Source: Tsukamurella conjunctivitidis (GTDB taxonomy: Bacteria; Actinomycetota; Actinomycetes; Mycobacteriales; Mycobacteriaceae). Taken from it: DNA of 64,000 nucleotides. This document shows, piece by piece, positions 1 to 64,000 of this stretch. The translations under genes were made by a program, and so were the position numbers. Location of the stretch: positions 372,001 through 436,000 of the forward strand of contig NZ_VIGX01000001.1 of the NCBI RefSeq assembly GCF_007858475.1. The letters are read 5' to 3'. Positions within the stretch are counted from its first letter, which is position 1. Each line of letters starts with the position of its first letter. Below the pieces are notes generated by a model that saw nothing but the letters and a program-made list of their open reading frames with translations, made no database searches and had not been told where the DNA came from.

Positions 1-78
1 GCTCGCGGCATTGCGTTCCCGCGCCCAATCGAGCGCAGTGGCGGATTCCACTTCTTCGAGCCATGCGTACTGGTCCAT
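1..78 (-). CDS. S9 prolyl oligopeptidase family peptidase, N-terminal fragment
   Basis: Only the first 26 codons lie in the window; the gene runs off the left edge. The translation begins [18 protein letters not shown], which matches the start of S9 prolyl-oligopeptidase proteins (a Y-x-W-L-E-E-x-E-S motif followed by A-L-x-W). In M. tuberculosis a peptidase of this family (Rv0457c) lies near lpdC, so the context fits. The ATG is supported by a TAGTGT -10 hexamer on the minus strand at 86-91, ending 7 nt upstream, which predicts a leaderless mRNA. The gene is divergent from lpd, with only 30 nt between the starts. Catalytic residues are outside the window, so activity cannot be judged. Confidence 0.75.
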
Positions 79-85
79 GGACTCC

Positions 86-101
86 ACACTAGGGCTAGGC
101 T
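86..101. promoter_or_regulatory. Divergent leaderless promoters, S9 peptidase / lpd
   Basis: TAGGCT at 96-101 (plus) ends 7 nt before the lpd GTG. TAGTGT on the minus strand (86-91) ends 7 nt before the peptidase ATG. Both match the TANNNT -10 consensus of mycobacterial sigma-A promoters and predict transcription starting at the first base of each start codon. Confidence 0.65.
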
Positions 102-108
102 GAAAGCC

Positions 109-1491
109 GTGGCTGATCACTTTGACACTGTTGTACTCGGCGCCGGCCCAGGAGGCTACGTCGCCGCTATTCGCGCCGCCCAACTCGGGCAGAAGGTCGC
201 GGTCATCGAGGAGAAGTACTGGGGCGGTGTGTGCCTGAACGTGGGCTGCATCCCGTCGAAGGCGCTCCTGAAGAACGCCGAGCTGGCGCACACCTTCACG
301 CACAAGGCCCAGCTGTTCGGCATCTCCGGCGACGTCTCGTTCGACTTCGGCGCCGCCTTCGACCGCAGCCGCAAGGTGTCGGAGGGGATCGTCAAGGGCG
401 TTCACTTCCTGATGAAGAAGAACAAGATCACCGAGATCAACGGCTACGGCACCTTCGTCGACGCCCACACCATCCAGGTGGGCGATCAGACGGTGACGGG
501 CGACAACATCATCATCGACACGGGTTCGACGGTGCGCCTGCTCCCGGGCGTCACGCTGTCCGACAACGTGGTCACCTACGAGGAGCAGATCCTCACCCGC
601 GACCTCCCCGAGTCGATCGCCATCGTCGGCGCCGGCGCGATCGGCATGGAGTTCGCCTACGTCCTGAAGAACTACGGCGTGGACGTCACCATCATCGAGT
701 TCCTCGACCGCGCGCTGCCCAATGAGGACGCCGACGTCTCCAAGGAGATCGCCAAGCAGTACAAGAAGCTGGGCGTGAACATCCTGACCTCCACCAAGGT
801 CGAGTCGGTCGACGATCAGGGCTCGCAGGTCGTCGTGAAGTACACCGGCCCCAAGGGGCCGGGCGAGATCACCGTCTCCAAGGTGCTCATGAGCATCGGC
901 TTCGCGCCCCGCGTCGAGGGCTTCGGCCTCGAGAAGACCGGTGTCGCCCTCACCGAGCGCGGCGCCATCGCCATCGACGACTACATGCGCACCAACGTCC
1001 CGGGCGTCTACGCCATCGGCGATGTCACCGCGAAGCTGCAGTTGGCGCACGTCGCCGAGGCGCAGGGCGTCGTCGCCGCCGAGACCATCGCCGGCGCGGA
1101 GACCCAGGCACTGGGCGACTACCGCATGATGCCGCGCGCCACCTTCTGCCAGCCGCAGGTCGCCTCGTTCGGCCTCACCGAACAGCAGGCGAAGGACGAG
1201 GGCTACGACGTCAAGACCGCGACCTTCCCGTACACGGCGAACGGCAAGGCTCAGGGCCTCGGCGACGCCGTCGGCTTCGTCAAGCTGGTCTCCGACGCCA
1301 AGTACGGCGAGCTGCTCGGCGGTCACCTCATCGGCCCCGACGTCTCCGAGCTGCTGCCCGAGCTGACCCTCGCTCAGAAGTGGGACCTCACCGTCAACGA
1401 GCTCGCGCGCAACGTGCACACGCACCCGACTCTGTCCGAGGCGCTGCAGGAGTCGATCCACGGCCTCGCCGGCCACATGATCAACCTGTAG
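109..1491 (+). CDS. lpd: Dihydrolipoyl dehydrogenase
   Basis: FAD-dependent E3 component that reoxidises dihydrolipoamide in pyruvate and other 2-oxoacid dehydrogenase complexes. In mycobacteria it also serves peroxynitrite reductase/peroxidase chemistry. The 460-residue protein has the usual length. It shows the FAD-binding motif GAGPGGY near residue 11, the redox disulfide in [13 protein letters not shown] (Cys42/Cys47), the NAD-binding GAGAIGMEF segment near 175, and the C-terminal His-Glu dyad region [10 protein letters not shown] near 440. The start is GTG, chosen because the protein begins right before the Rossmann fold and a TAGGCT -10 lies 7 nt upstream. No Shine-Dalgarno is evident, so the mRNA is probably leaderless. 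A strong hairpin follows the gene. Confidence 0.95.
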
Positions 1492-1505
1492 GAATCGTTC
1501 GCCCC

Positions 1506-1541
1506 GCGGCCCGGCATCGTCCTGCGACGGTGCCGGGCCGC
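1506..1541 (+). terminator. Strong hairpin terminator after lpd
   Basis: Perfect 11-bp arms (GCGGCCCGGCA / TGCCGGGCCGC) enclose a loop and are followed by GTCGTTTCCC. The right arm contains one copy of the over-represented 9-mer CGACGGTGC. It separates lpd from the following gene. Confidence 0.75.
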
Positions 1542-1567
1542 GTCGTTTCCCCCGAAGGAGACCGACC

Positions 1568-4389: not shown

Positions 4390-5790
4390 CTACCGGACGA
4401 GGTAGGGGGAGATGGTGGAGCGGTGTTCGTCGATGTCGAGTGCCTTGCCGATGGCGGGGAAGGCGCGCTGCGGGCAGCCGGCGCGCTCGCAGACGCGGCA
4501 GCCGGCGCCGATGGGGGTGGCGGTGACGTCGTGGAGATCCATGCCGCGGGCGTAGACCAGGCGGTGCGCGTGCCGCAGCTCGCAGCCGATGCCGATGGCG
4601 AAGGTCTTGCCGGGCTGCCCGTACCGTGCCGCACGTCGCTCGACGGTGCGCGCGACCCACAGGTAGTTGCGGCCGTCGGGCATCTCGACGATCTGCGTGA
4701 TGATCTTGCCCGGCCAGGCGAAGGTCTCGTAGACGTTCCACAGCGGACAGGTGCCGCCGGACGCGGAGAAGTGGAAGCCGGTGGAGCTCTGCCGCTTGCT
4801 CATGTTGCCCGCGCGGTCCACGCGCACGAAGGACAGCGGCACGCCGCGCAGGTTGGGACGCTGCAGCGTGGACAGCCGGTGCGCGATGGTCTCGTAACTC
4901 ACCGAGAAGAACGCGGACAGCCGCTCGATGTCGTACTCGAACTCCTCCGCGGCGCCGTGGAACTGCGTGTACGGCAGCACGACGGCGGCGGCGTAGTAGT
5001 TGGCCAGCCCCAGGCGGGCGAGCCGGCCGGCCTCCTCGGAGCCGAACCCGGCACCGTCGACCAGGGCGTCGATCTCCCGGCCGCATTCCAGGTAGGCGAG
5101 TTCGGCCGCCATCTTGAAGACCTGCTGCCCGCCGGAGAGGTGGCGGTTGATCTCGAGCACGCGGGTTCGCGGGTCGTAGCGATGCAGCACCGTCTCGCCG
5201 AGGTCGACGCGGCGGCGGATGGAGACGTTGTGCACGGCCTCGAGCCGGGTGACGATCTCGGTGCGCACGTCGGCGTTGTGCATGCGCATCCGCGCGGTGA
5301 GCTCCTCGGCCGCGACGTCGAGCTCGTGGAAGTAGTTCTGCCGCTGGTAGAAGAAGTCCCGCACCTCCTCGTGCGGATTGGGGATGGCTCCGCGCGCCCC
5401 CGGATCGTTGCGGCCGTCGGTCACCTGGGCCAGCTGGTCCGCGGCGCCGAGGTAGCGGCGGTGCAGCGCGACCATCGCGCGGGCGAAGCCGGGGTGGTCG
5501 CGGGCGAGCTCGGACAGCTCGTCGGTGCTGGTGGGTGCGTCGACGTCCATCGTGACCTCGCGCAGCTCCGCGATGAGGCGCGTCTGGTCCTGGGAGTTGA
5601 AGAACGAGGTGTCGACGCCGAAGACGTCGGTGATCTTGAGCAGGACCGGCACGCTGAGCGGGCGGACGTCGTGCTCGATCTGGTTCAGGTACGACGGCGA
5701 GATCTCCAGCGCCTCCGCCAGGGACGCCTGCGACAGCCCGCGCTCTTTGCGCAGGCCGCGCAGTCGTGCCCCCACGAAGGTCTTGGACAT
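4390..5790 (-). CDS. ramB: RamB-type XRE regulator of acetate/glyoxylate metabolism
   Basis: 466-residue transcriptional regulator. An N-terminal XRE helix-turn-helix (residues about 8-62; LSQASLAEALEISPSYLNQIE) is followed by an ImmA/IrrE-like region and the C-terminal DUF2083 domain with a Cys cluster (CRVCERAGCPQRAFP). In Corynebacterium and M. tuberculosis RamB binds upstream of isocitrate lyase and of its own gene. Here it lies divergent from icl, across a 402-bp spacer. The ImmA/IrrE zinc motif is degenerate (MAAELAYLECGRE where HExxH would be), so peptidase activity is not expected. A minus-strand TAATAT ending 7 nt before the ATG predicts a leaderless mRNA. Confidence 0.85.
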   Translation of the reverse strand: MSKTFVGARLRGLRKERGLSQASLAEALEISPSYLNQIEHDVRPLSVPVLLKITDVFGVDTSFFNSQDQTRLIAELREVTMDVDAPTSTDELSELARDHPGFARAMVALHRRYLGAADQLAQVTDGRNDPGARGAIPNPHEEVRDFFYQRQNYFHELDVAAEELTARMRMHNADVRTEIVTRLEAVHNVSIRRRVDLGETVLHRYDPRTRVLEINRHLSGGQQVFKMAAELAYLECGREIDALVDGAGFGSEEAGRLARLGLANYYAAAVVLPYTQFHGAAEEFEYDIERLSAFFSVSYETIAHRLSTLQRPNLRGVPLSFVRVDRAGNMSKRQSSTGFHFSASGGTCPLWNVYETFAWPGKIITQIVEMPDGRNYLWVARTVERRAARYGQPGKTFAIGIGCELRHAHRLVYARGMDLHDVTATPIGAGCRVCERAGCPQRAFPAIGKALDIDEHRSTISPYLVR

Positions 5791-6192: not shown

Positions 6193-7485
6193 ATGAGCAC
6201 CGTCGGACAGCCGAGGACCGCCGCCGAGATCCAGCAGGATTGGGACACCAACCCGCGCTGGAAGGGCATCACGCGCGAGTACACCGCCGAGCAGGTCGCT
6301 GAGCTGCAGGGCAGCGTCGTCGAGGAGAACACCCTCGCTCGCCGTGGCGCGGAGATCCTGTGGGACGGCGTCACCAAGGGTGACGGCTCCTACATCAACG
6401 CCCTGGGTGCCCTCACCGGCAACATGGCCGTGCAGCAGGTGCGCGCCGGCCTCAAGGCGATCTACCTCTCCGGCTGGCAGGTCGCCGGTGACGCGAACCT
6501 CTCGGGCCACACCTACCCCGACCAGTCGCTGTACCCGGCCAACTCGGTGCCGTCGGTCGTGCGTCGCATCAACAACGCCATGCTCCGCGCCGACGAGATC
6601 GCCCGGGTCGAGGGTGACAAGTCCGTCGACAACTGGGTCGTGCCGATCGTGGCCGACGGCGAGGCCGGCTTCGGTGGCGCGCTGAACGTCTACGAGCTGC
6701 AGAAGGCCATGATCGCCGCGGGTGCCGCCGGTACCCACTGGGAGGATCAGCTCGCCTCGGAGAAGAAGTGCGGCCACCTCGGTGGCAAGGTGCTCATCCC
6801 CACCCAGCAGCACATCCGCACGCTGACCTCGGCCCGCCTGGCCGCCGACGTGGCGAACACGCCCACCGTCGTCATCGCGCGCACCGACGCCGAGGCCGCC
6901 ACCCTGATCACCTCGGACGTCGACGATCGCGACAAGCCGTTCGTGACCGGTGAGCGCACCGCCGAGGGCTTCTACAACATCAAGAACGGCATCGAGCCCT
7001 GCATCGCCCGCGCCAAGGCCTACGCGCCGTACGCGGACATGATCTGGATGGAGACCGGCGTTCCGGACCTCGAGGTCGCCAAGAAGTTCGCCGAGGGCGT
7101 CAAGGCCGAGTTCCCGGACCAGCTGCTCTCCTACAACTGCTCGCCGTCCTTCAACTGGAAGCAGGCGCTGGACGACGCGACCATCGCCAAGTTCCAGAAG
7201 GAGCTCGGCGCGATGGGCTTCACCTTCCAGTTCATCACGCTGGCCGGCTTCCACGCCCTCAACCACTCGATGTTCGACCTGGCCTACGGCTACGCCCGCG
7301 AGGGCATGACGGCCTACGTCGACCTGCAGGAGCGCGAGTTCGCGTCGGAGGCTCGTGGCTACACCGCCACCAAGCACCAGCGTGAGGTCGGCGCCGGCTA
7401 CTTCGACCGCATCGCCACCACCGTCGACCCCAACACCTCGACGGCCGCCCTGAAGGGCTCCACCGAGGAGGGCCAGTTCCACTAA
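6193..7485 (+). CDS. aceA: Isocitrate lyase
   Basis: Glyoxylate-shunt enzyme that splits isocitrate to succinate and glyoxylate, needed for growth on acetate and fatty acids. The 430-residue protein is the short prokaryotic type (Icl1-like). The catalytic loop [12 protein letters not shown] carries Cys193. Mg/substrate residues are seen in [10 protein letters not shown] (near 156) and YNCSPSFNW (near 316). The ATG follows a GGGGAG ribosome-binding site. Neighbours agree with function: the presumed regulator ramB upstream and the beta-oxidation gene fadB2 downstream. Carbon-source control through RamB is expected. Confidence 0.97.
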
Positions 7486-8514: not shown

Positions 8515-9459
8515 ATGAACGAAACGCAGATCCTGGACACCGTCATCGTCGGCGGCGGGGCCGCCGGGCTCACCGCCGCGCAGGTCCTCGGCCGGGCGCG
8601 ACGTACCGTCACCGTCGTCGACGCGGGCGCGCCCCGCAACGCCCCCGCTGAGCACATGCACGGCTACCTCGGCCACGACGGCCTCGATCCCGCCGAGCTG
8701 CTGGCGATCGGCCGCCGCGAGGCGCAGGCCTACGGCGTGCGCATCCTGGCGGGCGCCGCGACGGGGGTGCGCCGGGAGGGCGAGGTCCTCGTGGTCACCG
8801 TCGGCGACGAGGAACTGCGCGCCCGCACCCTGCTGGTCGCGACCGGCCTGCGCGACGTGCTGCCCGCGATCGACGGTGTCGTCGAGCGCTTCGGCCGCGA
8901 CGCGCTGCACTGCCCCTTCTGCCACGGCTACGAGGTGCGCGACCGGCCGCTCGCGGTGATCGGCGGGGAGATCGCTGCGATGTCGGTGCACCAGGCGCTG
9001 CTCATCCCGCAGTGGTCGCGCGACCTGATCTTCTTCACCAACGGCCTCGAGGTCGACGACGCCGACCGCGCGAAGATCTCCGCGCGCGGCACCCGCATCG
9101 TCGACGGTGCCGTCGCCGGCCTGGTCGTCGAGGACGACGCGCTGCGCGCGGTCCGGCTCGCCGATGGCACCGAGATCGAGCGGGAGGCCGTCTTCGTCGG
9201 CCCGCGGCTGGAGCCGCAGGACGAGCTGCTGCGGGCGCTCGGCGCCGAGCGCGTGGCCGCCGGGCCGTTCCCGACGGTCCCCGTCGACCCGATGGGTGCG
9301 GTCGCCGGGCAGTCGGGCGTGTGGGCGGCGGGCAACGTCGTGAATCCGATGGCGCAGGTGATCGTCGCGGCCGGAGCCGGTTCCGTCGCGGCCACGGCGA
9401 TCAGCGCGCACCTGCTCGAGCGCGACATCGCGACCGACCTGGCCCGGGGCGCGCAGTAG
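8515..9459 (+). CDS. Thioredoxin-reductase-like FAD oxidoreductase
   Basis: 314-residue flavoprotein of the low-molecular-weight thioredoxin reductase fold. FAD-binding GGGAAGLTAAQ lies near residue 14 and the redox-active pair is in HCPFCHGYE (Cys133/Cys136). The C-terminal FAD motif appears as GVWAAGNVVNPMAQV. The CPFCHGYE form, with a degenerate NADP-binding GGEIAAM segment, is typical of a broad group of TrxR-like proteins whose partner is unknown, so I do not call it trxB. Start taken at the ATG immediately before the FAD fold. A methyltransferase gene begins 18 nt downstream. Confidence 0.8.
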   Translation: MNETQILDTVIVGGGAAGLTAAQVLGRARRTVTVVDAGAPRNAPAEHMHGYLGHDGLDPAELLAIGRREAQAYGVRILAGAATGVRREGEVLVVTVGDEELRARTLLVATGLRDVLPAIDGVVERFGRDALHCPFCHGYEVRDRPLAVIGGEIAAMSVHQALLIPQWSRDLIFFTNGLEVDDADRAKISARGTRIVDGAVAGLVVEDDALRAVRLADGTEIEREAVFVGPRLEPQDELLRALGAERVAAGPFPTVPVDPMGAVAGQSGVWAAGNVVNPMAQVIVAAGAGSVAATAISAHLLERDIATDLARGAQ

Positions 9460-10237: not shown

Positions 10238-11122
10238 TCAGGCCGGGGGATAGGCCGCCAACAACGCGGTCCGGAGCGGGTCGGTCGTGTGGGGCAGCCA
10301 CAGCGCCTGGACCGGGACCTGCGGGGCGTCGTCGAGTTCGACGACGACGGCCCGGCCCCCGAACCGGGGCCCGGTGTCGTCGGTCACGAAGGCCGCGGCG
10401 TGCGGCGAGGTCAGCACGGCCGTCGCGGGCGGCGTGCCCTGCACGCGGTTCACCAGCAGGTCCGGTTCGAAGCCCGCGCGCCGGCACTGCGCGACGAGGA
10501 AATCCGTGTAGAACGAGGCGTGCGGCGGCGCCCACACCACGATGGGCGACGCGGCGAGGTCCGCCAGCGCGAGCGACTCGCGGCCCGCGAGCGGATGGTC
10601 GCGATGCAGCGCGACGCGCATCCGGTGGTAGCCGATCGTCACCCCGGCCAGCCGCTCGGGCAGCGCGACGCCCCGCCGGAGCACCAGGTCGACGGTGCCC
10701 TCCTCCAGCTCGGAGGTCATTGCCGACGGGAACAGCTCCCGCACCGTGATCGACGGTGAATCCTCCTGCACGATGAGGGGTTCCAGCAGCTCGTAGGCCT
10801 CGTCGGCGGTGACGGCGGGGCTGCGCCCCACGACGAAGCCCCGCGGCTTCTCCGCGCCCGCGTCCCGCGCTCGCGCCGCGAGCAGCCGGGCGCCGGACAG
10901 GACGGACGGCGCACCGTCGTATAGCGAGCGGGCGGCGGCGGTGGGTGCGAGGCGACGCCCGGACCGCGTGAACAGCGGCGTGCCGAGCTCGCGCTCCAGC
11001 TGGCGCAGCGCGGCCGAGAGTGCCTGCTGGCTCAGGTGCAGGCGGGCGGCCGCGGCGGCGAGCGAGGGCTCCTCCATCGCGGCCACGAACTGCTCGAGAC
11101 GTCGGAGGTCGGGGGTGGTCAC
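10238..11122 (-). CDS. LysR family transcriptional regulator
   Basis: 294 residues. The N-terminal winged HTH is LRRLEQFVAAMEEPSLAAAAARLHLSQQALSAALRQLERELG (segments about 5-46). The substrate-binding domain begins near residue 90. It starts at GTG and is divergent from an SDR gene; this is the classic arrangement in which LysR regulators control the neighbouring operon. The intergenic region has an inverted TTGGTGAA/TTCACCAA pair that could be the binding site. The ligand is unknown. Confidence 0.88.
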   Translation of the reverse strand: MTTPDLRRLEQFVAAMEEPSLAAAAARLHLSQQALSAALRQLERELGTPLFTRSGRRLAPTAAARSLYDGAPSVLSGARLLAARARDAGAEKPRGFVVGRSPAVTADEAYELLEPLIVQEDSPSITVRELFPSAMTSELEEGTVDLVLRRGVALPERLAGVTIGYHRMRVALHRDHPLAGRESLALADLAASPIVVWAPPHASFYTDFLVAQCRRAGFEPDLLVNRVQGTPPATAVLTSPHAAAFVTDDTGPRFGGRAVVVELDDAPQVPVQALWLPHTTDPLRTALLAAYPPA

Positions 11123-13325: not shown

Positions 13326-13362
13326 CCGACGGTGCCGGACCCGCGCGGCCCGGCACCGTCGG
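13326..13362. terminator. Bidirectional terminator built from an inverted 9-mer pair
   Basis: Perfect 13-bp arms CCGACGGTGCCGG (13326-13338) and its complement (13350-13362). The arms are one copy each of CGACGGTGC and GCACCGTCG. It sits between convergent genes. Confidence 0.8.
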
Positions 13363-13375: not shown

Positions 13376-14230
13376 TCAGGCCTGCGCGAGGCGCGCCTTC
13401 TCGTGCTCGACGTCGAAGTCGGCGGGCGGCCAGTCGAGGTTCAGGCCCTCGAGCGCCTCGATGAGCAGCTCGGTGATCGCGAGCCGACTGAACCACTTCC
13501 GGTCGGCCGGGATGACGTGCCACGGCGCACCGTCGGTGCTGGTGCGGTCCAGCATGGCCTGGTAGGCCTCCTGGTACTTCGGCCAGTAGCCGCGCTCGTC
13601 GATGTCTGCCGGGTTGTACTTCCAGAACTTGTCGGGCCGGTCGAGCCGCTCCGCGAGGCGCTTCTTCTGCTCGTCGAGCGAGACGAACATCGCGCACTTG
13701 ACGACGGTGACACCCGACGCCGCCAGATCCTCCTCGAAGCTGTTGATGATCTCGTAGCGCGGCTCCCAGACGGTCTGCGGGACGAGGTCGTGCACGCGGA
13801 CCACCAGCACGTCCTCGTAGTGCGAGCGGTCGAAGACGCCGATCTGCCCGCCCTTGGGCGTCTGCTTGTGGATGCGCCACAGGAAGTCGTGCGCCAGCTC
13901 CTCCTCGGTCGGCTTGCCGAACGACGCCGTCTTCACGCCCTGCGGGTCGACCATCCCGATCACGTGCCGGACGATGCCGCCCTTGCCGGCGGTGTCCATG
14001 CCCTGCAGCACCAGGAGCACGGAGCGGTGATCGCCCGACCGGCCGTTCGCGTACAACAGCTCCTGCAGCTCCGAGAGCCGGGCTCCGCGCTCCGCGAGGA
14101 GCTTCTCGCCGAGGGCCTTGTCACCGTCGAAACCGGGCTTGCCGGAGGTGTCGATGTCCTGGACCAGGGAGCCCGGGTGCCAGCGCAGAGCTGCGGATGC
14201 GGAACCGGACCAACCGTTGTCGTTCGCCAT
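13376..14230 (-). CDS. ppk2: Polyphosphate kinase 2 family protein
   Basis: 284 residues. Family members transfer phosphate between polyphosphate and nucleotides (GDP/ADP or NMP). The Walker A motif is GMDTAGKGG (77-85) and the Walker B/lid segment is GVFDRSHYEDVLVVRVH (near 131). Downstream EDLAASGVTVVKCAMFVSLDEQKKRL and FWKYNPADIDERGYWPKYQEAY are characteristic of PPK2. One-domain length suggests class I or III; the substrate (NDP versus NMP) cannot be decided by eye. It is divergent from the DUF445 gene with a 50-bp gap. Confidence 0.88.
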   Translation of the reverse strand: MANDNGWSGSASAALRWHPGSLVQDIDTSGKPGFDGDKALGEKLLAERGARLSELQELLYANGRSGDHRSVLLVLQGMDTAGKGGIVRHVIGMVDPQGVKTASFGKPTEEELAHDFLWRIHKQTPKGGQIGVFDRSHYEDVLVVRVHDLVPQTVWEPRYEIINSFEEDLAASGVTVVKCAMFVSLDEQKKRLAERLDRPDKFWKYNPADIDERGYWPKYQEAYQAMLDRTSTDGAPWHVIPADRKWFSRLAITELLIEALEGLNLDWPPADFDVEHEKARLAQA

Positions 14231-14280: not shown

Positions 14281-15621
14281 GTGACGGTGTCATCTCCCGC
14301 GGGATCCCCGCAGTCGTCCGGGACGGGTTCGTCCCGCGTTCCGGCGAGTCCGTTCGGCGGCACGCCCGACGAGCAGAAGAAGCGCGACCTGCGCAAGATG
14401 AAGGCGCTCGCCCTCTCCTTCCTCATCGGCGCGGCGATCATCTACCTGTTCTGCGAGTACCTCGATACGAAGGGCGCGAACCTCCCGATCGCTGGGCCGT
14501 GGGTCGGCTACGTCAAGGCCGCGGCCGAGGCGGGCATGGTCGGCGGCCTCGCGGACTGGTTCGCGGTGACGGCCCTGTTCCGGCACCCCCTGGGCCTGCC
14601 GATCCCGCACACGGCCATCATCAAGCGCAAGAAGGACCAGCTGGGCGACGCGCTCGGCGGCTTCGTGGAGAGCAACTTCCTCACGCCCGAGGTGATCGCC
14701 GAGAAGGTGGGCTCGCTCGACCTGAGCGGCCGCGTCGCGAACTGGATGGCCGACCCGGAGAACTCGCAGAAGCTGGGTGCCGAGGCGGCGAAGCTGGTCA
14801 AGGTGATGAGCGAGGTGCTGCGCGACGAGGACGTCGAGGCGGTGCTCAACTCGACGATCATCAAGCGCCTGGCGGAGCCGGAGTGGGGGCCGCCCGTCGG
14901 GCGGCTCGTCGAGACGCTGCTGCAGGAGCAGCGCCAGCTGCCGCTGATCAACCTGCTCGCCGAGCGCGCGCACCACTGGGCCCTGGGCAGTCAGGGCGTG
15001 ATCGACAAGATCGTGGACACCGACGGTCCGCAGTGGTCGCCCAAGTTCGTCAACTCACTGCTGGGGGAGCGGATCTACCGCGAGCTGGTCGAGTTCACGT
15101 GGAAGGTGCGCAGCGACCCGGACCACGAGGTGCGGCAGGCGATGAGCACCTTCCTGTGGGACTTCGCCTCCGATCTGCAGCACGACCCGCGCACGATCGC
15201 CAAGGTCGAGGACGTCAAGGCCGAGCTCATGGGCCGCGAGGAGGTGCGCACCGCAGCGCAGGCGGCGTGGCGCGCGGCGAAACGGATGATCGAGGCCTCC
15301 GTCGAGGATCCGGATTCCACGCTGCGGGAGAAGTTCAGCGAGTCCGCGGCCCGGTTCGGTGTGCGGCTGCGCGACGATCAGGCGCTGCGCGACAAGGTCG
15401 ACTTCTGGGTCGACCGCTCGGTGCGGCACCTCGTCGAGAACTATGCGAGCCAGATCACATCGATCATCACGGACACCGTCGCGCGGTGGGACGCCGACGA
15501 GGCCTCGGACAAGATCGAGCTCGCCGTGGGACGTGACCTGCAGTTCATCCGGATCAACGGCACCGTCGTGGGCTCGATCGCGGGCCTGGTGATCTACTCG
15601 ATCACCCAGATCTTCTTCTGA
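14281..15621 (+). CDS. DUF445 membrane protein
   Basis: 446 residues. A basic N-terminal tail (EQKKRDLRKMKALALSF) leads into one membrane helix. Then come the DUF445 signature EAGMVGGLADWFAVTALFRHPLGLPIPHTAIIKRKKDQLG (segments, near residue 80) and a long helical, probably coiled-coil body, and a C-terminal membrane helix (GSIAGLVIYSITQIFF). Two-anchor topology suggests a bridging or scaffolding role in the envelope, but the function is unknown. The GTG start is tentative; in-frame GTGs lie 12-24 nt upstream. It precedes XRE-hbhA as Rv0473 precedes Rv0474-Rv0475. Confidence 0.82.
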   Translation: MTVSSPAGSPQSSGTGSSRVPASPFGGTPDEQKKRDLRKMKALALSFLIGAAIIYLFCEYLDTKGANLPIAGPWVGYVKAAAEAGMVGGLADWFAVTALFRHPLGLPIPHTAIIKRKKDQLGDALGGFVESNFLTPEVIAEKVGSLDLSGRVANWMADPENSQKLGAEAAKLVKVMSEVLRDEDVEAVLNSTIIKRLAEPEWGPPVGRLVETLLQEQRQLPLINLLAERAHHWALGSQGVIDKIVDTDGPQWSPKFVNSLLGERIYRELVEFTWKVRSDPDHEVRQAMSTFLWDFASDLQHDPRTIAKVEDVKAELMGREEVRTAAQAAWRAAKRMIEASVEDPDSTLREKFSESAARFGVRLRDDQALRDKVDFWVDRSVRHLVENYASQITSIITDTVARWDADEASDKIELAVGRDLQFIRINGTVVGSIAGLVIYSITQIFF

Positions 15622-19788: not shown

Positions 19789-19816
19789 CTCCGTCCGGCC
19801 CGACGGTGCGCCGCGC

Positions 19817-28094: not shown

Positions 28095-28157
28095 GCAGGG
28101 CCCGGCGCGGGCTGGGGGAGTCGTGCCGCGCGGGGGACGGCTCCGCGCGGGGGTACG

Positions 28158-43783: not shown

Positions 43784-45022
<1,239 letters not shown>

Positions 45023-49196: not shown

Positions 49197-51283
49197 GCGC
49201 CCCGGCCCAGCCCGTCGCGCAGAAGGTCCCGTCCTCACGCACCTTCCACGGCGACACCGTGATCGACGACTACGCCTGGCTCGCCGATACCAAGAACGAC
49301 GAGGTGCTCGACTACCTGCGCGCCCACAACGCCTTCACCGAGGCCGCCACGGCGGGCCACGAGCCCCTGCGGGCGGCGATCTTCGGGGAGATCAAGGCGC
49401 ACACGCAGGAGACCGACATGTCGGTGCCGCAGCGTCGCGCGGATCACTGGTACTACGCGCGCACCGTCGAGGGCAAGCAGTACGGGATCCACTGCCGGGC
49501 ACCGATCTCGGGTCCCGACGACTGGACTCCACCGGTCCTGTCCGACGAGCCGCTCCCCGGCGAGCAGGTGCTGCTCGACCTCAACGTGGAGGCCGAGGGG
49601 CACGAATACATCGCCGTCGGCGCCGCCTCGGTCTCGCCCGACGGCACGCTGCTCGCCTTCTCCCTCGACACCGCCGGCGACGAGCGGTTCACGCTGCGCA
49701 TCAAGAACATCGACACGGGCGAGCTGCTGCCCGATGAGGTCGGCGACGTCTTCTACGGCGCCACCTGGGCCCTCGACGGGCGGCACCTGTTCTACACCAC
49801 CGTCGACGAGGCCTGGCGCGCCGACAGCATCTGGCGGCACGAGATCGGCTCCGCCGCGGACGATGTGAAGGTCTTCCACGAGGCGGACCAGCGCTTCGGC
49901 GTGGGCGTCGGCCTCACCCGCAGCGAGAAATACCTGATGATCGCCGCCTCGTCGACGCTGAGCTCCGAGACCTGGGTCCTCGATGCGGCCGATCCCACGG
50001 GCGAGTTCCGTCTACTGCGGCGGCGTGAGGAGGACGTCGAGTACTCGGTCGAGCACGCGGTGCTCGACGGCGAGGACCGGTTCCTGTTCCTGCACAACCG
50101 CACCGGTATCAACTTCGAGCTGGCGTCGGCCCCCGTCGACGCGCCGGAGGCGTGGACGGTCCTCGTCCCGCACCGCGACGACGTGCGCCTGGAGTACGTG
50201 GACGCCTACGCCCGACGTCTCGCCCTCGGGTACCGACGGGGCGGCCTGCCGCGGCTCGCGCTCGCCGCGGCCACGGCCGCACCGGAGTTCACCGAGTGGG
50301 ACCCGGGCGAGGAGCTCGTGAACCTCGGTCCGGCAGCGAATCCCGAGTGGGACGCCCCGCGCCTGCGCCTGGCCTACGAGTCCTTCGTGACCCCTGGCAC
50401 CGTCCTCGAGCTCGACCCGGAGACGGGCGAGCAGACGGTGCTCAAGCGCGCCAACGTCCCCGGCTACGACGCCGCGCTCTACACCGCGGAGCGGCTGTGG
50501 GTGACCGCCCGCGACGGCGCGGAGGTGCCCGTCTCGGTGGTGCGCCGCAAGGATGTTCCGGATGGTCCGGCGCCGACCCTGCTGTACGGCTACGGCTCCT
50601 ACGAGGCCACGCTCGACCCGTGGTTCTCGGTCGCGCGGCTCTCGCTCATGGACCGCGGCGTGGCCTTCGTGGTGGCGCACGTGCGCGGCGGCGGCGAGAT
50701 GGGGCGCGCCTGGTACGACCACGGCAAGCAGCTGGAGAAGCGGAATACCTTCACCGACTTCGTGGACGTCGCACAGAACCTCGTGGACACCGGCCGGTCG
50801 GTGCCGCAGCGGCTGGTGGCGATGGGCGGCAGCGCGGGCGGCCTCCTCGTCGGCGCCGTGGCGAACCTGGCACCGGAACTGTTCTCCGGCATCGTCGCCG
50901 ACGTTCCGTTCGTGGACCCGCTCACGTCGATCCTCGACCCGAGCCTGCCGCTCACGGTGGGGGAGTGGGACGAGTGGGGCAACCCGCTCGAGAGCGCCGA
51001 GGTGTACCGGTACATGCGGGACTACTCGCCGTACGAGAACGTCGCCGCGAAGCCCTATCCTGCGATCCTCGCGACGACCTCCCTCAACGACACCCGGGTG
51101 CTGCCCACCGAGCCCGCGAAGTGGGTGGCCAAGCTCCTCGACCACACCACCTCGGGGGAGCAGATCCTGCTCAAGACCGAGATGGTCGCCGGCCACGCGG
51201 GGGTCAGCGGGCGCTACGCGAAATGGCGGGAGACGGCGTTCGAGTACGCCTGGGTCCTCGACAGGCTCGGCGTCGCGCAGTAG
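49193..51283 (+). CDS. ptrB: Oligopeptidase B (S9A family)
   Basis: 696-residue serine peptidase. The N-terminal part (about 1-75 and the terminal third) forms the hydrolase domain and the middle a beta-propeller. Nucleophile Ser547 is in [30 protein letters not shown] supplies Asp and [14 protein letters not shown] the His. YGYGSYEA is typical. Oligopeptidase B cleaves after basic residues in short peptides. Cytosolic. A bidirectional terminator follows. Confidence 0.9.
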
Positions 51284-51351
51284 CTCCGGCCACCCACCGG
51301 GAAGGTCGGGCCACGGCACCGTCGCCGGCTAGCGCCCGACCCCGGATGCAC

Positions 51352-54902: not shown

Positions 54903-55547
54903 TCAGACCTCGAGCGAGCCCTCGGCGTCCCAGCGGATGAAGTCGGCACCGTCGGGACGCAGTTCGGCGAGCCGGCCGAGGTAGACCCCCGCACCCTCCT
55001 GCGTGAGCAGCGCGTCGTGGATCGGGACCGCGGTGTCGGGGCGGACGGCGCGGAAGAAATCGATGGTCTCGCTGATCCGGCACCACGGCGCGTTCACGGG
55101 CAGGCCGAGGACGTCGACGGCGACGTCGGGGACGTGCAGGGCGTCGCCGGGGTGGTAGAAGCGGCCGATCCGCTCCTCGTCACCGAGCAGGACCGACGTG
55201 TTGTCGATGGTCGGGATGTCCGGGTGGATCACGGCGTGCACCCCGCCGACAGCGCGGGCGATGAGGTTGCCGATCCCGTAGTCGTGGCCGGGAACCGCGG
55301 CGATCCAGCGGCCGCCGCGGGTGGCCGCGGTGGTCGGGTCGGCGAACAGCTGCGCCTCGGGATTGGCGTCGACGAGGGCGTCGATGCGCTCGGGATCGAT
55401 GTGGTCCGGATGCTGATGGGTGACGACGATCGCGTCGAGCCCCGTCAGGTTCTCGAAGCCGGTGGAGAAGGTGCCGGGATCGAAGAGGACCCGGGTCTCG
55501 GACATCTCCACGAGGACGCAGGAATGGCGGTAGTGGGTGAGTCGCAT
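54903..55547 (-). CDS. Metallo-beta-lactamase-fold hydrolase
   Basis: 214 residues. HxHxDH motif: [15 protein letters not shown] near residue 50. [14 protein letters not shown] starts the fold and [12 protein letters not shown] and [15 protein letters not shown] supply further ligands. It matches Rv0786c by position near purS/purQ. The substrate is unknown; UlaG-like lactonases share this N-terminus. The ATG is chosen because CATACT lies 6 nt upstream. Confidence 0.85.
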
Positions 55548-56539: not shown

Positions 56540-57813
56540 TGGCTACCGGCCGAGCCTCCGCGGACGGATTGTGCGCCTTCGTCGACGCCTCCCCGTCGCC
56601 CTTCCACGTCTGCCGGACGGTGGCCCGCCGCCTCGGTGAGGCCGGGTACACGGAACTGGTCGAGCACGACGTCTGGCCGGGGCCGGGCCGGTACTTCGTG
56701 GTGCGCGGCGGATCGATCATCGCCTTCGACTCGTCGCACTGCGAGCACGGCGAGCTGCCCGCGTTCCGCATCGTCGGCGGCCACACGGACAGCCCGAACC
56801 TGCGGGTCAAGCAGCATCACGACGCGGAATCCGCGGGGCTCGCGCAGGTGCTCCTGGAGTCCTACGGCGGCGCCTGGCTCAACTCCTGGCTGGACCGCGA
56901 CCTCGGCGTCTCCGGTCGCCTCGCCGTGCGCGAGGGCGGCCGGGTGGTGCACACGCTGGTGCGGATCGACGAGCCCCTGCTGCGGGTTCCACAGCTGGCC
57001 ATTCACCTCTCGGAGAACCGCAAGGGTGTCGAGCTCGATCCCCAGCGTCACCTGCACGCGATCTGGGGCGCCGCCGGCGCGGGCGGCTTCCTGGCACGCG
57101 TGGCGGCCGCGGAGGGCTATGCCGCCGACGACGTGCTCGGGTTCGAGCTGATGACGCACGACCTGGCGCCGTCCCGCACCGTCGGGGCCGACGGTGCGCT
57201 GGTCTCCGCGCCTCGGCTCGACAACCAGGGGACCTGCTACGCGGGCACCGAGGCGCTGCTGGCGATCACGCCGGTCGACGGGATCGTGCCCGTGCTCGCC
57301 CTGTTCGACCACGAGGAAGTGGGCTCGGGCTCCGATCGCGGAGCCGCGTCCGACTTCCTGATCACCGTGCTGGAGCGGATCGGCCTGTCGCACAGGCTCA
57401 GCCGCGAGGATTTCCTGCGCACGCTGAGCCTGTCCGCGGTGGCATCCGGCGACATGGCGCACGCGACGCACCCGAACTACCCGGACCGGCACGAGCCCGC
57501 GCACCACATCGCGGTGAACGGCGGACCGGTCCTCAAGGTGAACCAGAATCTGCGCTACGCCTCCGATTCCGACGGCGAGGCGCTCTTCGCCCTCGCCGCG
57601 GAGCAGGCGGGCGTGCCGCTGCAGCGCTACGTGCACCGGGCCGACCTGCCCTGCGGGTCCACGATCGGTCCGATCACCGCGGCCCGCACGGGCCTGACCA
57701 CCGTCGACGTCGGGGCACCGCAGCTCGCGATGCACAGCGCCCGCGAGCTCATGGGCTCCGCCGACATCGGGTACTACTCCGCGGCGCTCGCCGCGTTCCT
57801 CGCCCCGGCCTGA
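56539..57813 (+). CDS. pepC: M18 family aminopeptidase
   Basis: 424-residue aspartyl-type aminopeptidase (apeB/PepC). Zinc-site segments: [17 protein letters not shown] (His/Asp), [33 protein letters not shown] (Glu-Glu pair) and [16 protein letters not shown] with a terminal [13 protein letters not shown] containing the last His. It corresponds to Rv0800. Overlaps the purQ stop by one base. It carries an inverted pair of the 9-mer CGACGGTGC in its coding region (57176-57197). Cytosolic peptide turnover. Confidence 0.9.
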
Positions 57814-59636: not shown

Positions 59637-61100
59637 TCAGTGCGCTGCGGACGGTGCGGGTGCCGCGGTGGGCGTGGACACGGCGGCGGGGGAGGGGAAG
59701 TCGAGCGTGCTCAGCGCGGCGGTGCCCGGCACGGCGTATCCCGTTCCGGCCTCGGCGTCCGAGATCTTGACCGCGTCGTCGGTGCGCGTGAGGTCCCGGC
59801 CCACCGTCTCGGGGAGGAGGAAGGTGCTCGCGGCGGTGATGGTGCACAGCGCCACCATGTACAGGCCGAGGACCAGCCAATTCCCGTGGGTGACCTTGAT
59901 CAGGTAGGCGCCGAGCACCCCGGCCACACCGCCGGCGAGGACGGCCGAGATCTCGCGGGCCATCGCCACGCCCAGGTAGCGGTGGCGCGCGCCGAACATC
60001 TCGGGGATCAGTGCGCACTGCGGACCGAGCATCGAGTTCACGCCCACGCCGATGCCGATCGCGATGACGGCGACCGCGACGGCGTGGTTGTGCAGGGTCA
60101 GTGCCCACCAGGCGGGCAGCGCGTAGACGAGGAGGAACAGGGCGCCGGCCCGGTAGACGATCCGGCGGCCGAACCGGTCCGAGAGGTGCCCGGTGAACGG
60201 GACGGAGAAGACCCCGATGAGCGAGCCGATCGTGACGCCCCAAGTGAGCACGCCCTTGTCGGCGCCGGGGCCGGTCACGCTCACGAAGAAGGACAATGCC
60301 AGTGCCTGGAACATGTACGAGCCGCCGTTCTCCGCCATCCGCAGGCCGATGCCCACGAGGACGCCGGGGAATCCGTGCTTGAACAGCTCGCGCACGGGCT
60401 TGTCGGCGACCTGCTCCTGCTTCTCCAACTCGACGAAGGTCGGCGTCTCCTGCAGCTTCATCCGGATCGCAACAGCCAGCAGGATCAGCAGGAAGGAGGA
60501 GAGGAACGGCACGCGCCAGCCCCAACTGAGCATGGCCTCCTCGGGCAGCATGCTGATGAGGGTGAACACCAGCGCGGCGAGCAGCGTGCCGGCCTGGATG
60601 CCGATGAACGGCAGCGCCGAGAAGAATCCGCGGCGTTTCACCGGCGCGTACTCGGCCATGAGCACCGTCGAGCCGGCCTGCTCGGCGCCGGCGCCGAAGC
60701 CCTGGAGCAGGCGCAGCGCCACCAGCATGATCGGCGCCCAGATCCCGATCGACTCGTACGTGGGCAGCAGGCCGATCAGGGTCGAGGCGCCGCCCATCAG
60801 CATGATCGTGATGACCAGGACCGCCTTGCGGCCCACCTTGTCGCCGAGGCGACCGAAGAACAGGCCGCCGAACGGGCGGGCGGCGAAGCCGACGCCGAAG
60901 GTCGCGAAGGCCGCCACCGTCGCCATCGCCGGGTCGCCCTGCGGGAAGAACAGCACGTTGAAGATCAGGGCGGTGGAGAGGCCGTACAGCGCGAAGTCGA
61001 AGTACTCGAGGGCGCTGCCGATGCTGGAGGCCAGGGTCGCGCGCGTGAGGTTCGCGGCGTACTCGGGGTCCTGTTCGGGCGAGGTGGTGGTGGTCGACAA
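59637..61100 (-). CDS. MFS transporter, metabolite:H+ symporter type
   Basis: 487 residues, 12 helices, of the ProP/ShiA/KgtP-type metabolite:H+ symporter group. SSIGSALEYFDFALYG, GVGFAARPFGGLFFGRLGDKVGRKAVLVITI (motif A) and LLQGFGAGAEQAGSTVLMAEYAP are characteristic. A C-terminal tail of about 45 residues is proline/alanine-rich. It is the first gene of a three-gene operon with the SDR and MDR genes, so gluconate- or idonate-type uptake is plausible. No regulator is adjacent. Confidence 0.85.
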   Translation of the reverse strand: MSTTTTSPEQDPEYAANLTRATLASSIGSALEYFDFALYGLSTALIFNVLFFPQGDPAMATVAAFATFGVGFAARPFGGLFFGRLGDKVGRKAVLVITIMLMGGASTLIGLLPTYESIGIWAPIMLVALRLLQGFGAGAEQAGSTVLMAEYAPVKRRGFFSALPFIGIQAGTLLAALVFTLISMLPEEAMLSWGWRVPFLSSFLLILLAVAIRMKLQETPTFVELEKQEQVADKPVRELFKHGFPGVLVGIGLRMAENGGSYMFQALALSFFVSVTGPGADKGVLTWGVTIGSLIGVFSVPFTGHLSDRFGRRIVYRAGALFLLVYALPAWWALTLHNHAVAVAVIAIGIGVGVNSMLGPQCALIPEMFGARHRYLGVAMAREISAVLAGGVAGVLGAYLIKVTHGNWLVLGLYMVALCTITAASTFLLPETVGRDLTRTDDAVKISDAEAGTGYAVPGTAALSTLDFPSPAAVSTPTAAPAPSAAH

Positions 61101-61281: not shown

Positions 61282-61289
61282 CCCGAATC

Positions 61290-62762
61290 ATGACCACCTC
61301 ACCTGCGGCACCGTCGGACCCGGAGGAGGGTGAGCACCTCACCCGAGCCCTGAGCAATCGCCACATCCAGCTCATCGCCATCGGCGGCGCGATCGGCACC
61401 GGACTGTTCATGGGCTCCGGCAAGACGATCTCGGTCGCCGGGCCGTCGGTGATCCTCGTGTACATGGTGATCGGCTTCATGCTGTACTTCGTCATGCGCG
61501 CGATGGGCGAGCTGCTGCTCAGCCGCACCGGCTACCGCAACTTCTCCGACTTCGCCGGCGACATCCTCGGCCCGTGGGCCGCGCACTTCACCGGATGGAC
61601 CTACTGGTTCTGCTGGGTCGTGACCGCGGTGGCCGACGTGGTGGTCATCGCATCGGTCTACATCACCTTCTGGGCCAAGGACATTCCGCCGTGGATCCCC
61701 GCGGTCGCGGTGATAGTGCTGCTGATCGGCCTCAACCTGCCGACGGTCCGGGCCTTCGGCGAGACCGAGTTCTGGTTCGCCATGATCAAGATCGTCGCCA
61801 TCGTCGCGCTCATCATCGTCGGCGCGGTGCTCATCCTCACCGGCTTCGAGCACGACGGCGCCCGCGCCTCGCTCGCGAACCTGTGGGAGCACGGCGGCGT
61901 CTTCCCGCAGGGCTTCATGGGTTTCGTGGCGGGCTTCCAGATCGCGGTCTTCGCCTTCGTCGGCATCGAGCTCGTGGGCACCGCGGCGGCCGAGACCAAG
62001 AATCCCGAGAAGAACCTGCCCCGCGCGATCAACGCCATCCCGATCCGGATTCTGCTGTTCTACGTCGGCTCGCTCGTGATCCTCATGTCCGTGGTGCCGT
62101 GGGACCGGTTCAGCAAGGACGAGTCCCCGTTCGTCATGCTCTTCACGCTCGCCGGGCTCGGCGCCGCCGCGCACCTGGTGAACGCGGTCGTGCTGACCTC
62201 GGCCATGTCGTCCGCGAACTCGGGCATCTACTCCACCTCGCGCATGGTCTACGGCCTGGCGACCGAGGGCGACGCCCCCAGGATCTTCGCGAAGCTCTCC
62301 GGCCGCAAGGTGCCCCAGAACGCCCTCTTCCTCACGGGCGTGATGATGCTGTCGTCGGTGGTGCTGCTCGGCTTCGGCCTCGACAAGTCGGCCGGCTTCA
62401 CCGTGGTCACCACGGTCTCGTCGCTGTGCTTCATGTTCGTGTGGACCATCATCCTGGTCAGCTACCTCGTCTACCGCTGGCGCCGGCCGCAGCTGCACGC
62501 GGAGAGCGCCTTCAAGATGCCCCTCGGCACCGTAATGCCGTGGATCGTCTTCGCGTTCTTCCTCTTCCTGCTCTGGGCCTTCACCCGCGAGACCGACACG
62601 CTGCAGGCCATGCTGGTCACGCCGATCTGGTTCCTCATCGTCGGCGCCGCGTACCTCGTGCTGCGCCGCAACCCGGAGCACCTCGCCGCGCGTCGGGCTT
62701 TCGCCGCCCGCGTCGTGGAGGAGAAGAAGGCCGCCGCGCAGTGGCGGGCCGCGCAGCGCTGA
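61290..62762 (+). CDS. cycA: APC family permease, CycA-like (D-Ser/D-Ala/Gly)
   Basis: 490 residues, 12 helices. N-terminus LTRALSNRHIQLIAIGGAIGTGLFMGSG is the amino-acid:H+ symporter signature. FAFVGIELVGTAAAETKNPEKNLPRAIN is the conserved helix 6-loop. NSGIYSTSRMVYGLA is also typical. Overall pattern best fits CycA, which imports D-serine, D-alanine and glycine; related permeases (AnsP, GabP, AroP) share much of it. The ATG is preferred to a GTG 12 nt upstream because the TAGTGT -10 overlaps that GTG. Confidence 0.82.
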   Translation: MTTSPAAPSDPEEGEHLTRALSNRHIQLIAIGGAIGTGLFMGSGKTISVAGPSVILVYMVIGFMLYFVMRAMGELLLSRTGYRNFSDFAGDILGPWAAHFTGWTYWFCWVVTAVADVVVIASVYITFWAKDIPPWIPAVAVIVLLIGLNLPTVRAFGETEFWFAMIKIVAIVALIIVGAVLILTGFEHDGARASLANLWEHGGVFPQGFMGFVAGFQIAVFAFVGIELVGTAAAETKNPEKNLPRAINAIPIRILLFYVGSLVILMSVVPWDRFSKDESPFVMLFTLAGLGAAAHLVNAVVLTSAMSSANSGIYSTSRMVYGLATEGDAPRIFAKLSGRKVPQNALFLTGVMMLSSVVLLGFGLDKSAGFTVVTTVSSLCFMFVWTIILVSYLVYRWRRPQLHAESAFKMPLGTVMPWIVFAFFLFLLWAFTRETDTLQAMLVTPIWFLIVGAAYLVLRRNPEHLAARRAFAARVVEEKKAAAQWRAAQR

Positions 62763-62765
62763 TCC

Positions 62766-63977
62766 TCAGTCCTGCTCGGCGAGCATCGGCGCGTCCGGTC
62801 CCAGTGGGCGGTGCAGGAGCGAGCCGCGGGTGACCGCGGCTCGACCGAACCGGTGGCGCAGGGAGTCCATGGCCTGGTCGAGATCGGCGTCGTGCTCACC
62901 GCCGTCGAAGGGCAGTGCGAGCTGCACCGCCCCGTGGTTCTCCAGGTTCGCCAGCGACAGCCCGACCAGTGTGCAGCCGCGCTCGCGGACCAACGGCATG
63001 GCCTCGTCGAGCAGCGCGCGGGCCGTCGCGAGCACGATCTCCGTCTGATCAGTCGGTTCGCGGAGCGAACGTGACCGGGTCACCGCGGTGAAATCGTCGA
63101 ACCGCAGCCGCAGTTCGACGGTCCGCGTGACGCGCCCGGCGGCCCGCAGCCGCTCGCCCAGGCGGTCCACTATCGCGAGCGCGGTGCCCTCGATCTCGGC
63201 CTCCGACTTCGTCCGCCGCCCCAGCGCCCGCTGGGCGCCGATCGACCTGCGCCGCCGCCCGGTGTCGACGCGGCGCGGGTCGTGCGCCATCGCCAGCGCG
63301 TAGAGGTGGCGCGCGGTACCGCGCCCGAGGAAGGCGGCGAGGCGGTGCTCTCCGAGCTCCGCGATCTGCCCGACGGTGACGATCCCGACTTCGTGCAGGC
63401 GCGCCTCGGTCTTAGGGCCCACGCCCCACAGGCGCCGCACCGGGAGGGGGTGCAGGAACTGCAGCTCGGTGCCGGGCGCGACCTCCAGCAGCCCGTCGGG
63501 TTTGCCGACGGCACTCGCCACCTTCGCCAGGAACTTGCTGCGCGCGACGCCGACGGTGATCGGTAGCCCGACCTCGGCGCGCACCCGCTCGCGCAGCCGT
63601 GCCGCGATCTGCACGGGAGTGCCGCGGATGGCGCGGAGGCCGCCCACGTCGAGGAAGGCCTCGTCGACCGACAGCCCCTCCACCAGCGGGGTGGTGTCCC
63701 GGAAGATCTCGAAGACGCGGCGGCTCGCCTCCATGTACGCGTCGAACCGGGGCGGCTGGGTGATCGCGAAGGGGGCGAGCGCGAGGGCCTCGCGGTGCGG
63801 CATGGGGGAGCGCACGCCCTTCGCCTTCGCCTCGTAGCTCGCGGCGAGCACGACGCCCGAGCCCACGAGGACCGGGCGGCCCCGCAGCCACGGGTGGTCG
63901 CGCTGCTCGACCGAGGCGTAGAAGGAATCGAGATCGGCGTGCAGGATCGACGCCTCTGCCCGCACGTCCATCCGCAT
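62766..63977 (-). CDS. dinB: DNA polymerase IV (Y family)
   Basis: 403-residue translesion polymerase. N-terminal SILHADLDSFYASVEQRDHPWLRG carries the first catalytic Asp. LSVDEAFLDVGGLR carries the Asp-Glu pair, and YEAKAKGVRSPMPHREA follows the steric-gate region. HhH region: GVGPKTEARLHEVGIVTVGQIAEL. QLALPFDG near the C-terminus is a likely beta-clamp-binding motif. GATACT 6 nt before the ATG is a weak -10. A stop 3 nt from the permease stop makes the genes convergent. Confidence 0.92.
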   Translation of the reverse strand: MRMDVRAEASILHADLDSFYASVEQRDHPWLRGRPVLVGSGVVLAASYEAKAKGVRSPMPHREALALAPFAITQPPRFDAYMEASRRVFEIFRDTTPLVEGLSVDEAFLDVGGLRAIRGTPVQIAARLRERVRAEVGLPITVGVARSKFLAKVASAVGKPDGLLEVAPGTELQFLHPLPVRRLWGVGPKTEARLHEVGIVTVGQIAELGEHRLAAFLGRGTARHLYALAMAHDPRRVDTGRRRRSIGAQRALGRRTKSEAEIEGTALAIVDRLGERLRAAGRVTRTVELRLRFDDFTAVTRSRSLREPTDQTEIVLATARALLDEAMPLVRERGCTLVGLSLANLENHGAVQLALPFDGGEHDADLDQAMDSLRHRFGRAAVTRGSLLHRPLGPDAPMLAEQD

Positions 63978-64000
63978 GGCCGCAGTATCGCGCCCGGGTC

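Follow-up and report, generated by a model that had tools for sequence, protein, structure and literature searches.

Genome-wide signal words of a few bases are known from few lineages, and each has exposed a process of DNA uptake, of Chi-directed repair or of chromosome segregation. The FtsK orienting polar sequences (KOPS) and the SpoIIIE recognition sequences (SRS) have a strong polarity that points to the terminus. A skew to the leading strand is usual for Chi sites, which in Escherichia coli are read by the RecC subunit. E. coli Chi has the sequence GCTGGTGG. DNA uptake sequences (DUS) occur at 943 to nearly 6,000 copies per genome (PMC3630211), PMC2346458 describes known uptake sequences as orientation-biased inside genes, and PMC4390886 presents HIP1 as the palindrome GCGATCGC, tied to methyltransferases. 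The subject here is a further word of this kind, the 9-mer CGACGGTGC, in a 64,000-nucleotide stretch of Tsukamurella conjunctivitidis (the window: contig C110, positions 372001-436000, of the source genome G000). It very probably acts as a signal, specific to the genus and read in Tsukamurella double-stranded DNA by some machinery of the cell.

Exact copies of CGACGGTGC number 42 in the window (22 forward, 20 reverse; Table 1), which places it first among the 9-mers of the window when the strands are pooled. The expected count is 1.9 with independent bases, 3.7 under a Markov model of order 1 and 5.4 at order 2; it climbs to 7.8, 13.5 and 22 at orders 3, 4 and 5, but high orders are an unfair null because they absorb the word itself. 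Dinucleotide shuffles of the window (n = 100) yield a mean of 3.7 copies and a maximum of 11. The first-pass annotation of this DNA had estimated about 42 copies, 22 of them forward and 20 on the complement, against about two expected with independent bases, and had described the word as strongly over-represented. The exact counts agree with it throughout, and the 20 coordinates that it listed are all correct except 5052, which should read 5051. Over the whole source genome (5,074,876 bases, 343 contigs) there are 2,709 copies (1,408 + 1,301), against only 32 + 43 of the same word read backwards; the two orientations are slightly unequal (p 0.04), the orientation of contigs being arbitrary. 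Within the window, 36 of the 42 copies lie inside genes as called by a home-made codon-usage caller, and five of the six intergenic copies lie between convergent genes.

Coding constraints do not account for this abundance. The 419 genes called over a 456-kb section of contig C110 contain 295 copies, whereas synonymous-codon shuffling (n = 60) leaves 44 (standard deviation 7, maximum 64), a null that is blind to codon-pair effects, which are worth up to about threefold as judged by other genera. By z score (36, from 20 synonymous shuffles) the word stands at the top of all 9-mers on the 456 kb, the runner-up reaching 22. Related genomes give 333 copies against 43 (G001), 154 against 30 (G009) and 99 against 29 (G007); in G000, G001 and G009 the excess over codon shuffles is 5-8-fold and no other 9-mer exceeds the word in z. 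On the 456 kb the copies are distributed over several reading frames: (i) the same-strand frame at offset 2, encoding Asp-Gly-Ala, with 100 copies and a 10.7-fold excess, (ii) two Thr-Val frames at offset 1, with 50 copies on the same strand and 99 on the opposite strand, the pair showing excesses of 8.5-fold and 3.6-fold, and (iii) the opposite-strand frame at offset 0, encoding Ala-Pro-Ser, with 42 copies and a 47-fold excess. The remaining two frames, Arg-Arg-Cys among them, have 2 copies each. The earlier view that amino-acid use alone is insufficient is thus upheld; of the frames then named, Asp-Gly-Ala and Thr-Val are populous and Arg-Arg-Cys is not. Two outcomes had been set beforehand as telling against a signal, namely a match to a codon-aware null and enrichment in a single frame; on the 456 kb the count lies far above the null and the excess extends over several frames.

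The word is also sharply bounded. Against the 20 synonymous shuffles it occurs at 6.4 times expectation, while altering any one of the seven inner bases gives 0.4-2.5 times; the end bases are more tolerant (1.3-2.8 times for changes of the first base, 2.2-2.9 times for the last). These figures bear on the proposal that a repair or mutation drive, Vsr-like or linked to methylation, creates and protects CGACGGTGC without benefit to the cell. Such a drive would act in any frame and on either strand, as seen, as well as on phage DNA, and a single enzyme could give genus specificity. Repair of one mismatch should deplete the precursor, yet the commonest partner, CGACGGCGC, is not depleted (120 copies against 104 expected), so mutational conversion from CGACGGCGC is rejected; moreover, most of the excess is lost with almost any single-base substitution in the word, and not with one kind alone. 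A drive of this sort, a matter of inference, is improbable.

Among the genomes examined, the excess is confined to Tsukamurella. All 16 Tsukamurella genomes, G000 included, carry 827-4,002 copies (the highest count in 4.9 Mb), and 45 genomes of other genera in the family and order carry 51-713. A matched control, CGTCGGTGC, differs from CGACGGTGC by one base, has the same base composition and occurs at 325-497 copies in Tsukamurella. The ratio of the word to this control, which supplies the comparison of related genera that the first-pass annotation had proposed, lies at 2.3-9.4 in every Tsukamurella genome (16 of 16) and at 0.50-1.62, with a median of 1.02, in each of the 45 others. The density reaches one copy per 1.2-1.9 kb (G001, G000). 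The source itself belongs to this genus: the adenylosuccinate lyase of the window matches that of Tsukamurella asaccharolytica at 95%, whereas no match in Williamsia, Gordonia, Rhodococcus or other genera exceeds 83% (best 80 loci). Among the genomes of the same genus, G009 has a second replicon that is identical to Tsukamurella paurometabola NC_014159.1 across the 19.8 kb aligned. The lowest Tsukamurella ratios belong to G006, known from word counts and 15.7 kb of sequence, and to G007, whose PurB proteins are only 84-85% identical. In G007 CGACGGTGC is still the top 9-mer, at a weaker level (99 against a codon null of 28.6), and CGACGATGC is raised too (73 against 24.9). This second word, one base off CGACGGTGC, is conserved at 0.57 among G000, G003 and G001 and is perhaps a tolerated variant.

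Outside the genus, pooled stretches from eight other groups show a 0-3.3-fold level of the word over codon shuffles: 19 copies against 7.5 in Gordonia, 32 against 12.5 in Rhodococcus, 23 against 7 in Nocardia, 29 against 9.3 in mycobacteria, 6 against 2.3 in Williamsia, 12 against 11.5 in Streptomyces, 0 against 1.5 in Dietzia, and 4 against 1.8 in Hoyosella and others. The significance of these pools is inflated because they consist of orthologous stretches around purB. One genome of another genus (G020, 100 kb) has 21 copies against 6.7, fifth by z among 9-mers. A hint that CGTCGGTGC might serve as a dialect in another lineage (39 copies against 11.4 in the Gordonia pool) led nowhere, as it is nowhere abundant: 32-1,053 copies in 61 genomes, the most in a genome of 9.2 Mb.

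Conservation between species separates the DNA word from the protein that it encodes. Reciprocal-best-hit genes were aligned between G000 and G003 (318 pairs) and between G000 and G001 (250 pairs), leaving out of the count pairs below 60% identity and aligned blocks shorter than 8 residues. Between G000 and G003 the word is retained at 148 of 224 places, against 0.38 for other 9-mers. Where glycine is conserved between these two genomes, the codon GGT is unchanged at 51 of 72 sites inside the word and at 176 of 849 outside it (Fisher p 6e-18); the corresponding figures are 44/55 against 145/647 for G000 and G001, and 36/50 against 114/563 for G003 and G001. The alanine codon GCA, which reads the word on the other strand, behaves in the same way (25/30 inside against 89/458 outside for G000 and G003, 15/18 against 69/348 for G000 and G001, 14/18 against 57/302 for G003 and G001), and ACG, GTG, GTC and ACC are likewise retained more often inside the word. 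In triples of G000, G003 and G001, CGACGGTGC stands in all three genomes at 69 of 256 places, whereas six pooled one-mismatch words do so at 18 of 375. Eight of 1,229 frequent 9-mers are more strongly conserved than CGACGGTGC, which ranks ninth (0.60, median 0.33); one of the eight overlaps it. Since the word exceeds the codon shuffle, and since GGT and GCA are preserved chiefly within it, CGACGGTGC is maintained at the DNA level: it persists through evolution irrespective of the protein sequence encoded. Ordinary composition, that is codon, codon-pair or amino-acid use, would suit the roughly 1-3-fold background over codon shuffles in other genera, but not the 5-8-fold level of Tsukamurella (G000, G001, G009) or silent codons kept mainly inside the word. 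It is refuted by that silent-codon conservation and by the contrast between genera relative to CGTCGGTGC, and retains next to no probability.

The copies show no polarity. The split between strands is 169/148 on the 456 kb, in line with the strand neutrality already reported from the window, and spacing on contig C110 is random (coefficient of variation 1.00). Replication arms were set from the position of dnaA, with the terminus assumed to lie opposite. Twenty stretches of 20 kb from the Tsukamurella paurometabola chromosome then give 91 leading and 76 lagging copies (interval 0.47-0.62), a slight lean to the leading strand, and 400 kb of one G003 arm give 134 and 140. The pooled 225/216 (95% interval 0.46-0.56) answers the suggested check for skew between origin and terminus: no replication polarity is seen. 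On this count a polar signal of the KOPS type is rejected. The first-pass annotation had taken strand balance to argue against both KOPS and Chi, and the argument holds strongly for the former and only weakens the latter. Along genes the tilt is mild, with 50, 44, 67, 70 and 64 copies in successive quintiles.

Between genes, the word is densest where transcription converges. Pooled over G000, G003, G001 and G009, the density per kb is 1.41 in convergent, 0.44 in tandem and 0.27 in divergent gaps; G007, taken separately, has 0.45, 0.29 and 0.39. Observed counts against an order-2 expectation are 27 (in 19.1 kb) against 1.06, 33 against 3.40 and 12 against 1.60 in the same order, and they are not independent because three partly orthologous regions are pooled. 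Nine of the 27 convergent-gap copies have an inverted partner within 45 bp at no more than one mismatch, and none has a direct partner; at up to two mismatches, 15 have inverted and 10 direct partners, small numbers from related species. The pair at 13327 and 13353 exemplifies the convergent arrangement, in line with the earlier remark that some copies lie in terminators; the pair at 57176 and 57189 is intragenic.

In the T. paurometabola plasmid, the initial 60 kb contain 9 copies against an order-2 expectation of 3.1, a background level, and the last 40 kb contain 35 against 3.6, a level like that of the chromosome. This plasmid is mosaic-looking, with non-ribosomal peptide synthetase genes in its last 20 kb. 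A second record, NZ_LR134468.1 (T. tyrosinosolvens NCTC13231, "plasmid 26"), carries groEL, htpG and thiamine genes with 42 and 40 copies per 50 kb, and is probably a piece of chromosome filed as a plasmid.

These observations bear on the idea that CGACGGTGC is the chromosome-wide site of a sequence-specific organising protein, nucleoid-associated or condensin-like. Random spacing, occurrence on both strands without polarity, conservation within genes and presence in genic and intergenic DNA all agree with such a site, which would not require competence. Background level across 60 kb of a resident plasmid is not what housekeeping compaction predicts. An exact, non-palindromic 9-bp organising site at one copy per 1.2-1.9 kb is not known to us, and there is no candidate protein, no search having been aimed at one. 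An organising role is unlikely.

The mechanism that best fits the genome pattern is a watermark for the uptake of self DNA, analogous to DUS, with a probability of about 0.4. A DNA-binding protein of the uptake machinery, at the surface or in the periplasm, would prefer fragments bearing CGACGGTGC, so that the word would mark the DNA of kin. Recombination would then bring in alleles bearing it more frequently, and this biased import would spread the word and restore broken copies, silent positions included, which would account for its spread and its silent restoration alike. Tentatively, Tsukamurella, with its mycolic-acid outer membrane, may have evolved a DNA-import watermark independently, with a reader unrelated to ComP. 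This would be, as far as we know, a third origin of DNA uptake sequences and the first in Actinomycetota.

Candidate machinery is present in part. ComEC matches occur in 16 of 16 Tsukamurella genomes, a protein that reads as ComEA is encoded beside ComEC in G000, and near the window, at C110:119738-124406, lies a Tad/Flp pilus locus, named from inspection of its proteins and from one weak TadE match. RecC also matches in 16 of 16, with 14 over the family cut-off; in G000, G006 and G014 the match consists solely of separate pieces; the recC of G014 (C1:2299046-2302221) is in several pieces in a genome that is 83% complete, which may be a sequencing error. As markers separating Tsukamurella from its relatives, ComEC, TadE and RecC all fail.

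A number of observations weigh against the uptake watermark. ComEC is not genus-specific, being found in 44 of 45 relatives (60 of 61 genomes in all). TadE reaches the cut-off in 35 of the 61 genomes but in only 3 of the 16 from Tsukamurella, N_methyl pilins (PF07963) occur in 1 of 16, and ComP (PF16732), the Neisseria receptor, is found in 0 of 16, a search whose sensitivity is not demonstrated, since it also found 0 in 14 control genomes. Inside genes the word lacks the orientation bias of known uptake sequences (152 copies along the gene and 143 opposite on the 456 kb). Inverted partners are not in excess in tandem gaps (6 against 8 direct, of 33), in divergent gaps (1 against 1, of 12) or among genic copies (100 inverted and 113 direct, of 1,054). 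A single search of an open-access library turned up no report that Tsukamurella is naturally transformed; nor was a paper on CGACGGTGC in Tsukamurella found, by topic searches of that library or among the matches listed by a search for its letters. Finally, TPA2, a phage with T. paurometabola as host, carries 17 copies of the word in 50 kb, where a codon null gives 3.9, and 2 copies of CGTCGGTGC. An uptake mark is without evident use to a phage. The word is fourth of 2,520 words of equal composition in TPA2, after three CG-rich words, and the phage result is therefore suggestive only. The word density of TPA2 is near that of its host. In phages TIN2 and TIN4 (59% GC) the counts are 3 and 2, with 1.1 and 1.3 expected; in two relatives of TPA2 from Gordonia, over stretches of 24 and 26 kb, they are 0 and 3, with 1.1 and 0.9 expected. 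The DUS-like density put forward in the first-pass annotation stands. The resemblance is one of anatomy only, and the uptake role is still a proposal; ComP was not found and TPA2 is enriched.

The best rival is a Chi-like signal, because RecC is genus-wide, the core of the word has the GNNGGTGN form and a phage carries it. RecBCD, or AdnAB, would read the core GACGGTGC at a broken end and switch from degradation to recombination, and DNA resident in the cell would keep many copies in order to survive. The core fits GNNGGTGN, as E. coli Chi GCTGGTGG does; enrichment in TPA2 agrees with a word that would shield whatever DNA is present in the cell, and the part of the T. paurometabola plasmid at background level is also counted in its favour. 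The match to Chi, five bases of eight, is weak, however, and neither the absence of leading-strand bias nor the enrichment between convergent genes is predicted. Among the other genera of the family, which lack an excess of CGACGGTGC, RecC is present in 13 of 21 genomes, and in none of the 61 genomes is CGTCGGTGC a strong dialect; recC matches also occur in G006 and G007, which diverge most by PurB and hold few copies. A Chi-like role is doubtful. Whatever reads it, a word conserved at the level of codons gives direct access to the study of how mycolic-acid bacteria exchange or repair their DNA.

Table 1. Exact copies of CGACGGTGC in the window (window coordinates)
Feature	Position	Strand	Context
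CGACGGTGC	527..535	+	
CGACGGTGC	1525..1533	+	between called genes 229-1491 and 1568-2332
CGACGGTGC	4641..4649	+	
CGACGGTGC	5051..5059	-	
CGACGGTGC	6197..6205	-	
CGACGGTGC	9102..9110	+	
CGACGGTGC	10690..10698	+	
CGACGGTGC	10911..10919	-	
CGACGGTGC	13327..13335	+	left arm of inverted pair (possible hairpin) between convergent called genes 12137-13324 (+) and 13376-14230 (-)
CGACGGTGC	13353..13361	-	right arm of inverted pair with 13327
CGACGGTGC	13527..13535	-	
CGACGGTGC	15560..15568	-	
CGACGGTGC	19801..19809	+	between convergent called genes 19084-19788 and 19817-21106
CGACGGTGC	19878..19886	-	
CGACGGTGC	22344..22352	-	
CGACGGTGC	22651..22659	+	
CGACGGTGC	23495..23503	-	
CGACGGTGC	25195..25203	-	
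CGACGGTGC	25568..25576	+	
CGACGGTGC	26579..26587	-	
CGACGGTGC	27413..27421	+	
CGACGGTGC	28156..28164	+	between convergent called genes 27303-28094 and 28209-28973
CGACGGTGC	28291..28299	-	
CGACGGTGC	28640..28648	-	
CGACGGTGC	28987..28995	+	
CGACGGTGC	34036..34044	+	
CGACGGTGC	35459..35467	+	
CGACGGTGC	36062..36070	+	
CGACGGTGC	36446..36454	+	
CGACGGTGC	37542..37550	+	
CGACGGTGC	41450..41458	-	
CGACGGTGC	41540..41548	+	
CGACGGTGC	42571..42579	+	
CGACGGTGC	44479..44487	+	in purD
CGACGGTGC	44740..44748	+	in purD
CGACGGTGC	49461..49469	-	
CGACGGTGC	51316..51324	-	between convergent called genes 49193-51283 and 51403-53010
CGACGGTGC	54946..54954	-	
CGACGGTGC	57176..57184	-	inverted pair with 57189, inside aminopeptidase gene 56569-57813
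CGACGGTGC	57189..57197	+	inverted pair with 57176, inside aminopeptidase gene 56569-57813
CGACGGTGC	60662..60670	-	
CGACGGTGC	61308..61316	-	

Two further features stand apart from the word. A second family is over-represented on contig C110 relative to codon expectation, comprising CGATCCCG (169 against 67), GGGATCGA (95 against 31) and CGGGATCGA (66 against 18). A tRNA-Ser called by ARAGORN at 22063-22148 of the window, on the opposite strand inside the called gene 21108-22193, is probably false, as an Rfam search of the window at the gathering threshold returned only the other tRNA.

Set beside the described systems, CGACGGTGC shares with KOPS and SRS the character of a short genome-wide word and differs in being non-polar. 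Like HIP1 of cyanobacteria it is the highly iterated word of a lineage, with a debated function in the case of HIP1, but it is not palindromic. With Chi, as read by RecBCD or AddAB, it has in common an 8-bp core of the GNNGGTGN form and the presence of RecC in every Tsukamurella genome; it differs in lacking leading-strand skew, and its Chi role is putative. With the uptake signal sequences (USS) of Pasteurellaceae it shares a core of about 9 bp, high density and apparently random spacing; their sequence is unrelated, and CGACGGTGC has a mild tilt within genes rather than the bias towards gene termini described in PMC2346458. From the DUS of Neisseriaceae the word departs in its unrelated sequence, in its host, a high-GC mycolic-acid actinobacterium, in its presence in a phage and in a genus where ComP was not found and N_methyl pilins were not found in 15 of 16 genomes. 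The anatomy is closest to that of uptake sequences: DUS and CGACGGTGC are both exact words of 9-12 bp at about a thousand to several thousand copies, on both strands, in and between genes and specific to a lineage. DUS form some inverted pairs at gene ends, as copies of CGACGGTGC may do too, DUS being linked to terminators and CGACGGTGC being densest between convergent genes. The 2,709 copies in 5.07 Mb fall within the range of DUS copy numbers published in PMC3630211.

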